NCBI RefSeq assembly: GCF_015097055.1
Contig: NZ_AP023366.1
Coordinates: 1,798,001-1,862,000, forward strand
Reading direction: 5' to 3'
DNA length: 64,000 nt
From: Effusibacillus dendaii
GTDB lineage: Bacteria; Bacillota; Bacilli; Tumebacillales; Effusibacillaceae
Shown: positions 29,493 to 48,005 of the stretch, piece after piece
Numbering within the stretch: the stretch's first letter is position 1
Layout of the letters: each line of letters opens with the position of its first letter
The notes under the pieces: model-generated
What the model saw: the letters and a program-made list of their open reading frames with translations, nothing else
Told to the model about the DNA's origin: nothing
The model's database searches: none
Position numbers and translations under genes: made by a program

Positions 29493-29755
29493 CCTGTTCC
29501 CCCGTTTCACTCATTAAAGAAGGCTTCTACCGAAGCATATTCAAGAAAAAGCGGCTTCGCCAAGCCTTTGGCGCAGGCGGAAGCAAAGTTCCACCCACCA
29601 AAGTGGCAAGCACATTGGTGGACCCTCTTGCCCTTATATCGATAGGATAACATTTATAAATTCCTATCGACGAAAAAATTCGCCCCGCTGCAGAAACCTG
29701 CAAACAGCTGCATAAAGAAGAAAAAGTACCGCCAACATCGCGGTACTTCTATTTT
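29493..29755. other. hairpin-rich secG-est intergenic region
   Basis: 263 bp without a gene. On the minus strand, after the secG terminator (29723-29750), CGATAGGA and TCCTATCG form an eight-base dyad with a 13-base loop (29640-29672). CCACCA/TGGTGG and GCGCC/GGCGC stems follow closer to est. They could be an operator and leader structure of est. No known riboswitch pattern is recognised. Confidence 0.45.
29723..29750 (-). terminator. terminator of secG
   Basis: Minus strand AGTACCGC-GATGTTG-GCGGTACT followed by TTTTC, directly at the 3' end of secG; the A-rich other flank lets it act on both strands. Confidence 0.75.
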
Positions 29756-31629: not shown

Positions 31630-33168
31630 TCAAACGATCAAGCTTTTCCCCGTCATCTCTTTTGGCTGCTGAAGTTCAAGCAACTGCAGCAAGGTCGGTG
31701 ACACGTCGGCGAGAATGCCGCCGTCACGCAACTTAATTCCCGATTTTGTCACGATGCAGGGAACCGGTTGGGTAGTGTGGGCGGTCCACGGCTTTCCTGT
31801 TGCCTCATCGATCATGATGTCCGCATTGCCGTGATCGGCGATAATCATAGCTGCCCCCTGTTTTTCCAACACCTTATCGACCACTTTCCCCAAACATTCA
31901 TCGACCGCCTCGACCGCCTTAATGGCCGCTTCCAACACACCCGTATGACCGACCATATCCGGATTGGCAAAGTTTAGCACTATGAAATCAAACTTCTCAG
32001 CCTCAATTTCTTTCAAAACGGCATCGGTCACTTCATACGCGCTCATTTCCGGTTTCAGGTCGTATGTCGCCACTTTCGGAGAAGGAATCAAAATCCGTTC
32101 TTCGCCAGCAAACTTCTCTTCCCGTCCCCCCGAGAAAAACGAGGTCACATGCGGATACTTTTCTGTTTCAGCAATCCGCAGCTGCCGCAATCCGTTCTGT
32201 GTCACCACTTCCCCCATCGTGTTGTCGAGGGTGGTTGGTTTATAGGCGACAAAGCCATCTACCGACTCAGAAAAGAACGTCAGACAAACATAGTGAAGAT
32301 TTTTCGGGCATTTCGGGCCGCGGTCAAACCCGCGAAAATCTTCATTTGTGAACGCCTGTGAAATCTGAACGGCGCGATCCGGGCGGAAATTGAACATAAT
32401 GACCGCATCCTGGTCTTCAATCAGACCGACAGGCTGTCCATTTGCATCTGTGATGACTGTCGGCATGACAAACTCGTCCGTGACCGACTTGTCATAGCTT
32501 TCTTTTAAAGCAAGGAGCGGGTCCTGATATTTGGGTCCTTCTCCGTACACCATAGCGCGATATGCTTTTTCCGTACGCTCCCAGCGCTTGTCCCGATCCA
32601 TCGCATAATAGCGCCCCTGAACGGTAGCCAATTGACCAACGCCCAACTGTTCCATTTTATGCTGCAAATCCCGTATGTAGTTTATCGCTGTATGCGGCAT
32701 TACATCGCGTCCATCGAGAAACGCATGCACATAAACATGCGGCACCTCTTCCTTTTTGGCCAATTCCAGCAGCGCGAACAAATGCTGAATATGGCTGTGT
32801 ACCCCGCCATCCGAAACCAGACCGTACAAATGAAGCTTCTTTCCATTTTGCTTCACATATTTCATCGTTTCCAGAAAGGTGGGATTATCGAAAAATTCCC
32901 CTTCACGAATCGACTTGCTGATTCTCGTCAAATCCTGATAGACGATGCGGCCTGCCCCGATGTTCAAATGGCCGACTTCCGAATTCCCCATCTGGCCTTC
33001 GGGCAGCCCCACTGCCTCTCCGCAGGCAGTCAACTGCGTATGCGGAAATGTAGACCAATAGCGGTCAAAATTTGGCTTCCTGGCAAGCGCCACCGCGTTG
33101 CCTTCCGTTTCTTCCCGCAACCCGAATCCATCCAAAATAATTAACGCTACCGGTTTTGGTCTAGCCAC
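31630..33168 (-). CDS. gpmI: 2,3-bisphosphoglycerate-independent phosphoglycerate mutase
   Basis: 512 residues from GTG 33168, eight bases after AAGGAGG; an open frame continues upstream into a repeat but is not coding. Mn-binding and catalytic motifs: [25 protein letters not shown] (phosphoserine), [27 protein letters not shown] and IADHGNAD. Interconverts 3- and 2-phosphoglycerate; this Mn enzyme is needed for spore dormancy and germination control in Bacillus. The palindromic repeats at 33182-33391 lie immediately before its ribosome-binding site. Confidence 0.97.
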
Positions 33169-33181
33169 TCCGATTTCCTCC

Positions 33182-33391
33182 TTAGCGAGACCTGGCGGCT
33201 GTGCCGCCAAGGCGAGACATAGCGCGATCCGGTATCTTTGATACCTGACGCGACTTGTGCCCTTTGGGTGCATAGCGCGATCCGGTATCTTTGATACCTG
33301 ACGCGACTTGTGCCCTTTGGGTACTTGTGCCCTTCATAGCGCGATCCGGCAGCTTGCTGCCAAGACACGACTTGCCCCCGTTGGGGGTGGG
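33182..33391. repeat. cluster of four palindromic repeat units upstream of gpmI
   Basis: Units: U0 33182-33220 (TTAGCGAGACCTGGCGGC-TGT-GCCGCC...), U1 33218-33270 and U2 33271-33322 (nearly identical tandem copies, core CATAGCGCGATCCGGTATC-TTT-GATACC), U3 33335-33391 (core CCGGCAGC-TT-GCTGCC). U1-U3 each end in a second small hairpin (GCCCTTTGGGT or GCCCCCGTTGGGGGT). Stem sequences differ but stay paired. The edge of U0 touches the gpmI Shine-Dalgarno sequence. Related units lie at 47912-48005. Confidence 0.85.
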
Positions 33392-33394
33392 TAC

Positions 33395-34165
33395 CTATTT
33401 CTGTATGGCCGCCCGAATCAACCCGACAAACGATTGCGGATCCAGACTGGCTCCGCCAACAAGCGCCCCGTCGATATCGGGCTGCTGCAAGTAGTCTTGA
33501 ATCGTCTCCGGTTTCACAGAGCCGCCATATTGTATGCGAATTTTATTTGCCGTCGTGTCACCAAACAGAGAGGCGATCGTCTGCCGAATATGGCGGCAGA
33601 CCTCGTTTGCATTGGCCGCACTGGCGGATCGCCCGGTTCCAATTGCCCAAATCGGCTCATAAGCGACCACCGCTTGTTCCGCCGCAGATGCGTCCAAGCC
33701 GCCCAACGCCAGTCGGATTTGGCTTTCCACAATGGAAAACGTCTGACCCGCCTCTCGTTCAGCCAAGTCTTCGCCGACACACACAATCGGCACGAGACGG
33801 TGATGCAGCGCAGCTTGCACCTTGCGGTTTACGGTTGCGTCTGTTTCGTTAAAATAGGCCCGCCGCTCCGAGTGACCCACAATTACAAACCGTACCCCCA
33901 ATTCGGTCAACATAGCCGGGGAAATTTCACCCGTATACGGACCTTCTTCCGCAAAATGAACATTTTGCGCGCCGAGCAACAAATTCGTGCCAGACAAACA
34001 TCCGGATAGCGATTCAATCGCCGTAAATGGCGGACAGATAACAATCGTAACGTTTTCCATATTTCCAATCGGGTCTCTTACCTCTGTTACAAACTGTTTG
34101 CTTTCCGCTGTTGTCTTATGCATTTTCCAATTTGCGGCAATAATTGGAGTACGCAAGGAAGGCAT
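33395..34165 (-). CDS. tpiA: triosephosphate isomerase
   Basis: 256 residues. Catalytic Lys in AANWKMHKT (~13), His in VIVGHSERR (~97) and Glu in VAYEPIWAIGTG (~168), with the phosphate-gripping loop and IQYGGSVKPE near the end. It interconverts dihydroxyacetone phosphate and glyceraldehyde 3-phosphate. Twelve bases separate it from pgk upstream; gpmI follows after the repeat cluster. Confidence 0.98.
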   Translation of the reverse strand: MPSLRTPIIAANWKMHKTTAESKQFVTEVRDPIGNMENVTIVICPPFTAIESLSGCLSGTNLLLGAQNVHFAEEGPYTGEISPAMLTELGVRFVIVGHSERRAYFNETDATVNRKVQAALHHRLVPIVCVGEDLAEREAGQTFSIVESQIRLALGGLDASAAEQAVVAYEPIWAIGTGRSASAANANEVCRHIRQTIASLFGDTTANKIRIQYGGSVKPETIQDYLQQPDIDGALVGGASLDPQSFVGLIRAAIQK

Positions 34166-46001: not shown

Positions 46002-47900
46002 TCATCGATTTAACAAACTGCCGGTATATCGCAGCAGTTCATTTGCACATACGGAGCAATACCCATGTTCATCGATCAAACGCTTGGTGACTTCATTGAT
46101 TTTCTTTAGCTGTGTGGCATCCGGCGTTTTTGTCGAGGTGGTGATTTTTACCACGTCCTTCAAATCGGCGAACAGTTTCCGTTCAATCGCTTCCCGCAGC
46201 CGTTCATGCGAATTGTAATCAAATCGCTTGCCGCGCCGCGCATAAGTCGAGATCCGGATCAAAATCTCCTCCCGAAACGCCTTTTTCGCATTTTCCGAAA
46301 TACCGATCTGCTCTTCAATCGAGCGCATCAGCTTTTCATCCGGATCGATTTCTTCCCCTGTAATGGGATCCTTGATGCGCTGCCAGTTACAGTATGCCTC
46401 CACATTATCGAGATAGTTTTCCAAAAGCGTCTTGGCCGACTCTTCATACGAATATACGAACGCTTTCTGCACTTCTTTTTTGGCTTCTTCGTCATACTCT
46501 TTACGGGCCAATGAGATGAAGTTCAAAAGCTTTTCCTTTTCCTCTTTGGTGATCGACGCATGCTGATCAAGCCCATCCTTGATCGCCCGCAGTACGTCCA
46601 ATGCATTGATGCAGGTCGTATCGCGGCGAATCAAGGCACTCGACAGCCGGTTGATGACATAACGAGGATCGATGCCGCTCATTCCTTCATCGGGCGACTC
46701 CGCCTTCAGTTCCTGTACATCTTTTTCTTTAAATCCTTCCACTTCACTGCCGTCGTACAGGTACATTTTTTTGACCGGATCCATTCCCTGCTTTTTCGAT
46801 TCCTTCAATCGCGTCAGAACCGAAAAAATCGAGGCGGTGCGCAACGTGTGCGGCGCGATGTGGATATTTTGCAGATCGCTTTGCTTAACTAACTTTTCAT
46901 AAATTTTGACTTCGTCCGATACTTTAAGATTGTAAGGGATATGCATGACGATCATGCGGGACTGCAACGCTTCGTTTTTCTTGTTTGAAATAAACGATTT
47001 GTATTCTGTTTCATTCGTGTGGGCGATGATCATTTCATCGGCCGAAATGAGCGCAAACCGACCCGCTTTAAAATTCCCTTCCTGCGTCAGGGACAGCAGA
47101 TGCCAGAGAAACTTCTCGTCACACTTCAGCATTTCCTGAAATTCCATCAAGCCCCGGTTCGCTTTGTTCAATTCGCCGTCAAACCGGTACGCACGCGGGT
47201 CCGATTCGGATCCGTAAACAGAGATCGTTGAAAAATCAATGCTCCCCGTCAAATCGGCAATATCCTGCGATTTTGGATCCGATGGCGAGAATGTACCAAT
47301 TCCTACCCGATCGTCCTCGGAAAATACAACCCGCTCCACCGGCACATCTTCCACACGGTTGTTATAATCGTTCTGCAGCCGCATTCGACAGGCCGGGCAC
47401 AAGTTTCCTTCAATCCGGATACCGAGCTCCTTTTCAATTTCAGGTCGCAATTCCTGCGGGATCAGGTGCAGCGGCTCCTCGTGCATCGGGCAGTCTTTGA
47501 TCGCATAAACAGCCCCTTCTGCGGTTCTGGTATATTGCTCCAAACCTTTTTTCAGCATCGTGACAATTGTTGATTTACCGCCGCTAACAGGCCCCATCAG
47601 GAGCAAAATCCGCTTTCGGACATCGAGTCGGCGAGCAGCCGAATGAAAATATTCTTCCACCAGGCGTTCTAGCGGTTCCTCAAGTCCAAAAATTTCTTTT
47701 TCAAAAAATCGGTAATGTTTTCTTCCATTCTCATCTGTATCAATCCCCGCCGCCTCAATCATATGATAGATGCGGGAATGTGCGGTTTCGGCAATTTTGG
47801 GGTTTTTGCGAACCAGTTCAAGATAGTCGACAAAAGTGCCCTGCCAGGCGAGCTGTTGTTCCTGAGTCCTGTACGCTTGAAGTCGATTCAGAATATCCAT
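46002..47900 (-). CDS. prkA: PrkA serine protein kinase / AAA+ protein
   Basis: 632 residues from ATG 47900 (AGGGGGAG four bases before). N-terminal AAA+ part with Walker A GPVSGGKSTIVTML (~105-118), the conserved CPACR (~190), ELNKANRGLMEFQEMLK and TQEGNFKAG, then the C-terminal kinase-like domain. In Bacillus it is needed early in sporulation, and newer work describes AAA+ protease-like activity for relatives. First gene of prkA-yhbH-spoVR. A nested palindromic repeat lies directly before its ribosome-binding site. Confidence 0.95.
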   Translation of the reverse strand: MDILNRLQAYRTQEQQLAWQGTFVDYLELVRKNPKIAETAHSRIYHMIEAAGIDTDENGRKHYRFFEKEIFGLEEPLERLVEEYFHSAARRLDVRKRILLLMGPVSGGKSTIVTMLKKGLEQYTRTAEGAVYAIKDCPMHEEPLHLIPQELRPEIEKELGIRIEGNLCPACRMRLQNDYNNRVEDVPVERVVFSEDDRVGIGTFSPSDPKSQDIADLTGSIDFSTISVYGSESDPRAYRFDGELNKANRGLMEFQEMLKCDEKFLWHLLSLTQEGNFKAGRFALISADEMIIAHTNETEYKSFISNKKNEALQSRMIVMHIPYNLKVSDEVKIYEKLVKQSDLQNIHIAPHTLRTASIFSVLTRLKESKKQGMDPVKKMYLYDGSEVEGFKEKDVQELKAESPDEGMSGIDPRYVINRLSSALIRRDTTCINALDVLRAIKDGLDQHASITKEEKEKLLNFISLARKEYDEEAKKEVQKAFVYSYEESAKTLLENYLDNVEAYCNWQRIKDPITGEEIDPDEKLMRSIEEQIGISENAKKAFREEILIRISTYARRGKRFDYNSHERLREAIERKLFADLKDVVKITTSTKTPDATQLKKINEVTKRLIDEHGYCSVCANELLRYTGSLLNR

Positions 47901-47911
47901 TCTACTCCCCC

Positions 47912-48005
47912 TTAGCGAGACCCGGCGGCTAGATAGCGCGACCCGGCAGTTGACTGCTGCGGTGCGACTTTGCCCCCTTAGGGGGTGCCGCCGAGGCGAG
48001 ATATG
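47912..48005. repeat. nested palindromic repeat upstream of prkA
   Basis: An outer unit of U0 type (TTAGCGAGACCCGGCGGC at 47912-47929 and GCCGCCGAGGCGAGATATG at 47987-48005) is opened in its loop by a 56-bp unit of U3 type (TAGCGCGACCCGGCAGT, ACTGCTGCGG, then GCCCCCTTAGGGGGT). The outer edge again touches the Shine-Dalgarno sequence. Same family as 33182-33391. Confidence 0.85.

Follow-up and report, generated by a model that had tools for sequence, protein, structure and literature searches.

It has long been asked how REP-like palindromes only a few dozen bases in length spread. The small dispersed repeats known from cyanobacteria, attributed to Elhai 2008, are reportedly very small, mobile and also nested in one another; they come from a different lineage, and their likeness to the units considered here is one of description. 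The insertion sequences IS1397, IS621 and ISPpu9/10 are described, in passages of PMC1525189, as inserting at fixed points in REP palindromes, and they share with the Effusibacillus units the entry of a mobile element into a short chromosomal palindrome. However, according to the same passages, these are full insertion sequences with their own transposase, whereas in Effusibacillus the entering element is a non-coding palindrome of ~35-54 nt and the nesting goes both ways (PMC1525189). The REP/BIME system with TnpA-REP (RAYT) also presents short dispersed palindromes that are often clustered (parts of PMC2817692 and PMC8266576), and REP elements carry a GTAG or CGTC tag at one palindrome end (excerpts of PMC3733652). 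In contrast, the Effusibacillus units have another sequence and a double-hairpin anatomy, and no clearly linked Y1 transposase was found for them.

The MITEs RUP, ERIC and Correia are likewise non-autonomous stem-loop repeats, sometimes located inside IS elements or RNA genes, but they measure ~100-200 bp and mostly possess terminal inverted repeats, TA termini and target duplications (sections of PMC2229807); no MITE-like termini of this kind were seen in the Effusibacillus units. As expected of MITEs in the broad sense, the units occur in many dispersed copies without coding capacity, and empty and filled states of one site exist in the 5S genes of one congener (G001 below), in the tpiA-gpmI gap and in the DUF444-spoVR gap. 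The GC clusters of yeast mitochondria and the hairpin elements of sponge mitochondria are, in the portions of PMC4478555 and PMC2800124 that concern them, small and apparently mobile, and rRNA genes are among their sites; they vary between relatives, some have short flanking direct repeats, and merging of units has been reported (PMC4478555, PMC2800124). These elements belong to organelle genomes, whereas Effusibacillus is a spore-forming bacterium, and here too the likeness is one of description. A literature search found no description of the present repeat family, nor do the passages of the E. lacus genome paper that it reached (PMC5729459) mention such repeats. The family is a new one of a known kind; what sets it apart is that two short palindromes nest in each other.

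The window analysed here is a 64,000-nt stretch of the E. dendaii genome (NZ_AP023366.1, positions 1,798,001 to 1,862,000); E. dendaii is labelled G000, its three congeners G001, G002 and G003, and numbered loci carry the letter L. On the minus strand of the window lies prkA (46002-47900; PF08298 and PF06798), followed by the DUF444 and spoVR genes, with its ATG at 47900 and a Shine-Dalgarno-like GGGGGAG at 47905-47911. Its leader contains, also on the minus strand, an outer hairpin unit in two halves, the 5' half at 47986-48005 (type A, CTCGCC TCGGCGGC A) and the 3' half at 47912-47931 (TAGCCGCCGGGTCTCGCTAA), the latter abutting the Shine-Dalgarno region. Read along the gene strand, the outer unit breaks after CTCGCCTCGGCGGCA and restarts at TAGCCGCCGGGTCTCGCTAA, and the 54 nt in between (47932-47985) form a second unit composed of a hairpin H (CCCCC TAA GGGGG) and a long hairpin S ending in GCTATC. 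This inner unit belongs to the direct-repeat family D1, is 73% identical to another copy, and matches the family model R1 at 48.4 bits, although it was among the 21 rows from which R1 was built. The letters and coordinates that an earlier sequence-only reading had given for 47912-48005 are correct, as is its observation that the arms recur at 33182-33220 split by TGT alone; the inner unit that it had put at about 56 bp is indeed a family member, 54 nt in extent.

With up to three mismatches allowed, the arm TTAGCGAGACCYGGCGGC occurs in the window only at 47912 and 33182 (chance expectation 0.07), and the arm GCCGCCRAGGCGAGAYAT only at 47987 and 33203 (0.14). The spacer between them is TGT at 33182 and 57 nt at prkA, the latter being parsed as TA, the 54-nt unit and T on the model of copies whose loop is ATA. 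Without its insert, the outer prkA unit aligns gaplessly with the unit at 33182-33221 (35/40 identical) and shows a compensatory pair change across the split, T-A versus C-G; its joined loop is ATA, a loop found in further copies. In the predicted fold of the nested RNA, the outer stem is retained and encloses both hairpins, H and S, of the inner unit; the folding energy is unexceptional for the composition (z -1.54). A phage collection searched with this leader gave no match at E 1e-5. We consider it likely that two members of one repeat family are present in the prkA leader, the first of them having entered the apical loop of the second, and that the family is non-autonomous and mobile.

The full unit of this family is ~53 nt long and consists of the small hairpin H (CACCCAAAGGGCACAAG; CACCC AAA GGG CACAAG) and the long bulged hairpin S ending in CTATG, the latter with subtypes A, B, B' and C that are distinguished by paired changes. 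Among 21 copies, double-sided changes were observed in 14 of 20 pairs, amounting to 48 cells against 13.4 in shuffles, with a bias in favour of the structure, as it was drawn from the same 21 copies. Sliding the structure by 1-3 columns left at most 7 double-changed cells, and the number of 'further pair types', among five measures of covariation, did not exceed the shuffles (354 of 500 reach it). The numbers of R1 matches at E<=0.01 in the four genus genomes are 54, 8, 46 and 4, a total of 112 that includes the 21 training copies, and most of them are uninterrupted. No match was obtained at this threshold in ten other genomes of the order, and the sole match at E<=1 among 80 prkA loci from other genera is marginal (L070, E 0.36). 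Because the four-genome search misses interrupted units, the outer prkA units of G000 and G002 being absent from its matches and the copy in the G001 spoVR leader having surfaced only in a later, smaller search, the counts of filled loops are lower bounds. A search for broken units with the left-half pattern GGSYACAAGTC gave nine matches outside the model matches, and none of the seven inspected by eye, which left out two GGCC variants (G002:C129 and G003:C238), shows a unit.

In addition to gene leaders, units occupy rRNA leaders, positions next to tRNA genes, 5S rRNA genes and the interior of other palindromes. In the window, only tmRNA and one tRNA reach Rfam gathering scores, and none of the repeat copies does so for any family. 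In the rRNA leaders L143-L149 of G000 and L122 and L130 of G001, a 17-nt H module, single or in tandem, is followed by an S-like hairpin; GTCGTTCTTTG or a near form flanks this arrangement on both sides, and downstream of the H modules lies TCTTTGAAAACTG, which we take to be boxA-like. A third palindrome, like TGTACAACTTGGCAACTTGTTGCCTTAGTTGTACA, stands upstream of several unit arrays of G000 (L085, L097, L135 and L139).

The copy used for comparison with prkA is part of a minus-strand array of ~210 nt between tpiA (33395-34165; PF00121) and the downstream gpmI (phosphoglycerate mutase; 31630-33165; PF06415/PF01676). It comprises the uninterrupted S hairpin unit at 33182-33221 with the loop ACA (overlapping the R1 match at 1831186-1831217 in contig numbering), two tandem H+S units of type C at 33218-33270 and 33271-33323, and an H+S unit at 33335-33388 whose first hairpin is the long CCCCC/GGGGG form; each of the H+S units is an R1 match. 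The array is missing in all three congeners, in which the tpiA stop codon directly precedes the gpmI Shine-Dalgarno sequence, and a plasmid collection searched with it gave no match at E 1e-5. The sequence-only reading had taken 33182 and prkA as the empty and filled states of one site and as direct evidence of insertion at a defined spot, again with an outer edge touching the Shine-Dalgarno sequence of a sporulation gene. The two are different loci, and 33182 belongs to an array that the congeners lack; the contact with the Shine-Dalgarno sequence holds for prkA, whereas the 33182 copy precedes gpmI, which is not a sporulation gene. That units insert is borne out by the gpmI and spoVR leaders, the 5S genes and the type-2 palindromes described below, but not by the prkA/33182 pair alone.

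The 5S rRNA genes of G001 are the clearest case of empty and filled states, and a better proof of insertion than that pair. One of these genes, L118, is intact (RF00001, 105.1 bits), whereas L198 and L199, on contigs C62 and C96, read CCCGTTCCCAT, unit, CATCCCGAAC; in L198 there are 53 extra nt, including a CAT that is repeated at the insertion. In the Rfam 5S structure, the insertion site is the terminal loop with the sequence CCAUCCC, known as loop C. Insertions in loop C (positions 34-37) have been reported in several clostridia, and the loop is a known expansion site (parts of PMC7812874); the main text of that paper contains no Effusibacillus, Alicyclobacill- or Bacilli. The G001 insert differs from these expansion segments in that it is recognisable as a dispersed repeat unit. 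As L198 and L199 also contain a second insert, which matches the Rfam Bacillaceae-1 RNA (RF01690) at 52.8 and 58.7 bits, and have lost their match to RF00001 at E<=0.01, they may be pseudogenes; both are situated near the ends of draft contigs. The second insert suggests that the Bacillaceae-1 RNA may itself be a mobile hairpin.

A second palindrome family, referred to as type 2, has the form CCCACCAAAGTG...CACTTTGGTGGGGACCC. At E<=0.05 it gave 15, 25, 43 and 12 matches in the four genus genomes, of which 24 and some further ones were read closely, and none in 27 of the 80 other-genus loci. One short member is present in the window on the plus strand (29593-29624) and is among the five rows behind model R3. 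By alignment of joined flanks, 6 of 83 blocks have units within a type-2 palindrome, compared with 4 of 247 in a re-paired control; five of the six insertions follow ACTTTG, GCTTTG or ACTTCG and one follows CATTG, and the same arrangement was seen by eye in three more loci (L164, L190 and L193). The reverse nesting also occurs: in four G002 units (L155, L166, L173 and L162), the S hairpin is filled by a short type-2 palindrome. The loci L155 and L166 also contain an adjacent tandem copy that is empty, the insertions of L155 and L173 begin a few nucleotides inside the stem and not in the loop, and L162 has lost the complementarity of its flanking stem; in a fifth type-2 case, L237, half of the S hairpin is left. 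Together with the prkA leaders of G000 and G002 and the spoVR leader of G001, the four G002 units bring filled S hairpins to three genomes. Nesting within the own family, with flanks pairing over at least 6 bp at the junction, is found in an S hairpin in only one of 86 arrays, that of prkA.

Two observations concern the type-2 palindromes themselves. The short ones of G000 and G001 lie within a longer composite repeat with a flank like ATAAAGAAAACTTGGC... (29593-29624; L230-L232, L239-L241 and L244-L246). In L223 (G002:C122:44240-44309), a type-2 palindrome has ~13 extra nt resembling the right end of a unit (GTCGTGCTTTG), which are possibly an excision footprint. As to the nesting, we tentatively propose, as a minority possibility, that at least two families of tiny palindromes use each other's hairpins as landing sites in the manner of a Russian doll that opens both ways. 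Extruded or transcribed hairpins, i.e., S loops, type-2 arms and 5S loop C, might then guide insertion, and a structure-seeking single-strand transposition or an RNA-templated mechanism might move hairpins of ~50 nt.

The units also show a preference for their left flank. TG, with a background frequency of 6.6%, precedes 29 of the 48 array starts that are clean; 16 of these starts are not independent (flank from an opposite unit, rRNA leaders, or a second 5S copy), and among the 32 that are, 19 follow TG, 27 have W at -3 and 23 have G at +4. A TTTG flank coincides with a TTTG unit end in four of the six TTTG-flanked starts and in none of the 26 others. A general target-site duplication is not supported by a permutation test with 45 starts, in which only position -2 matches above permuted pairs. 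The idea of a defined spot holds in part: insertion is usually after WTG and often in or beside other palindromes, but the inner prkA unit, inserted at A^TA in the loop, breaks this rule.

Owing to this exception, template switching is retained as a rival explanation. It supposes that the nest arose without transposition, a unit having been copied into the prkA loop through slippage of replication or a switch of template at hairpins; such a process is probably also behind the tandem arrays. In its favour, adjacent tandem copies are often identical and partial copies are frequent at array ends. For prkA we nevertheless think it unlikely, because no parental array adjoins the gene, the loops of other units hold unrelated sequence (the type-2 palindromes and inserts of 103 and 32 nt), and the family has reached unlinked sites that include 5S rRNA genes.

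The 103-nt and 32-nt inserts come from the leaders of relatives. In G002, the outer S unit is at the same place before prkA, preceding AAGGGGGAG, with its loop filled by a different sequence of 103 nt; this insert was dropped as a candidate repeat, since no second copy better than E 0.1 was found in the four genomes. The prkA leader of G001 contains no recognisable unit, and neither do the aligned leaders L002 and L003 from other genera (of 80); within the genus the comparison comprises G001 and G002, the G003 contig ending inside prkA. The G001 spoVR leader contains a unit whose loop is filled by 32 nt, whereas the DUF444-spoVR gap of G000, at 26 nt, is too short for a unit. A motif like GGGCAAGGGCC upstream of prkA (leaders L002, L003, L132 and L133) recurs among the other-genus leaders and may be an older leader element. 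The sequence-only reading had called for a search of related prkA leaders for an empty site, and had held that a nested form in all relatives, with no empty loops anywhere, would indicate vertical descent of a fixed structure. The relatives do not show this: the leader of G001 is without a recognisable unit, that of G002 has an outer unit with another filling, and most model matches are uninterrupted.

These comparisons also bear on whether the unit is a cis-regulatory RNA, similar to a riboswitch or thermometer, the nested form being a vertically inherited and elaborated regulator of sporulation genes. The covariation of the stems would agree with such a function, and so would the position of the units, as 25 of 86 arrays have GGAG or GAGG no more than 14 nt downstream on the sense strand, compared with 3 of 86 on the other side. 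This bias could stem from a G-rich target or from selection against disruptive insertions. An AAG end that restores the Shine-Dalgarno sequence was considered and discarded: all five AAG ends lie before G-rich flanks, compared with 31 of 86 others, and the left flanks lack AAG. Against a regulator stand the units in rRNA leaders, beside tRNA genes and within 5S genes and other palindromes, the unrelated functions of neighbouring genes such as gpmI and prkA, the orthologous leaders without a unit (gpmI in three of three congeners, prkA in G001, where none is recognisable), and window copies that score below the gathering threshold of every Rfam family; we therefore give this explanation little credence. 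Least credible is the notion that the inner unit is flanked by two truncated copies unrelated to each other. In its favour, truncated copies are common at array ends, and a 6-bp complement at the junction would by itself be expected ~0.2 times among 86 arrays by our estimate (9 offset pairs in each, with 4^-6 per pair); against it, the joined arms have the gapless match, the compensatory change and the familiar ATA loop noted above.

The data show units that are dispersed and conserved in structure, with a lineage-specific presence at orthologous sites and exact junctions of insertion. In our reading they are mobile palindromes of a non-autonomous kind, which settle on hairpins and close to Shine-Dalgarno sequences; our confidence in it is slightly tempered by the failure of the interrupted 5S genes to match RF00001 and by the smaller target count once dependent starts are removed. 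The search for a mobilising enzyme, made in the one transposase family Y1 (PF01797), found none; the family gave 11 matches, some of them fragments of one gene, and is present in all four genomes. Palindromes mobilised by a RAYT would be expected to flank its gene, but model R1 places a unit near only one of the 11 (L178), ~1.4 kb away and on one side, and no clear link emerged. On the mobile-palindrome reading, the units would be copied in trans by a putative enzyme that recognises hairpin DNA (or RNA) and possibly acts on single-stranded hairpins, and insertion would take place mostly after WTG with G-rich sequence downstream. Insertions in loops and in the Shine-Dalgarno region would be tolerated over time since the outer stem, the gene and the ribosome binding site all stay intact, and the prkA nest would be one such loop insertion.

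The genus supplies pairs of empty and filled sites, one of them among the 5S genes of a single assembly, as well as two families that are nested in each other, and the choice of target and the junctions of such small palindromes thereby become directly testable. For the organism, prkA keeps its Shine-Dalgarno sequence and gains a long structured leader, and any effect on expression is probably a by-product. The locus illustrates how leaders in the conserved prkA-DUF444-spoVR operon acquire structured 5' ends while the Shine-Dalgarno sequence is retained.
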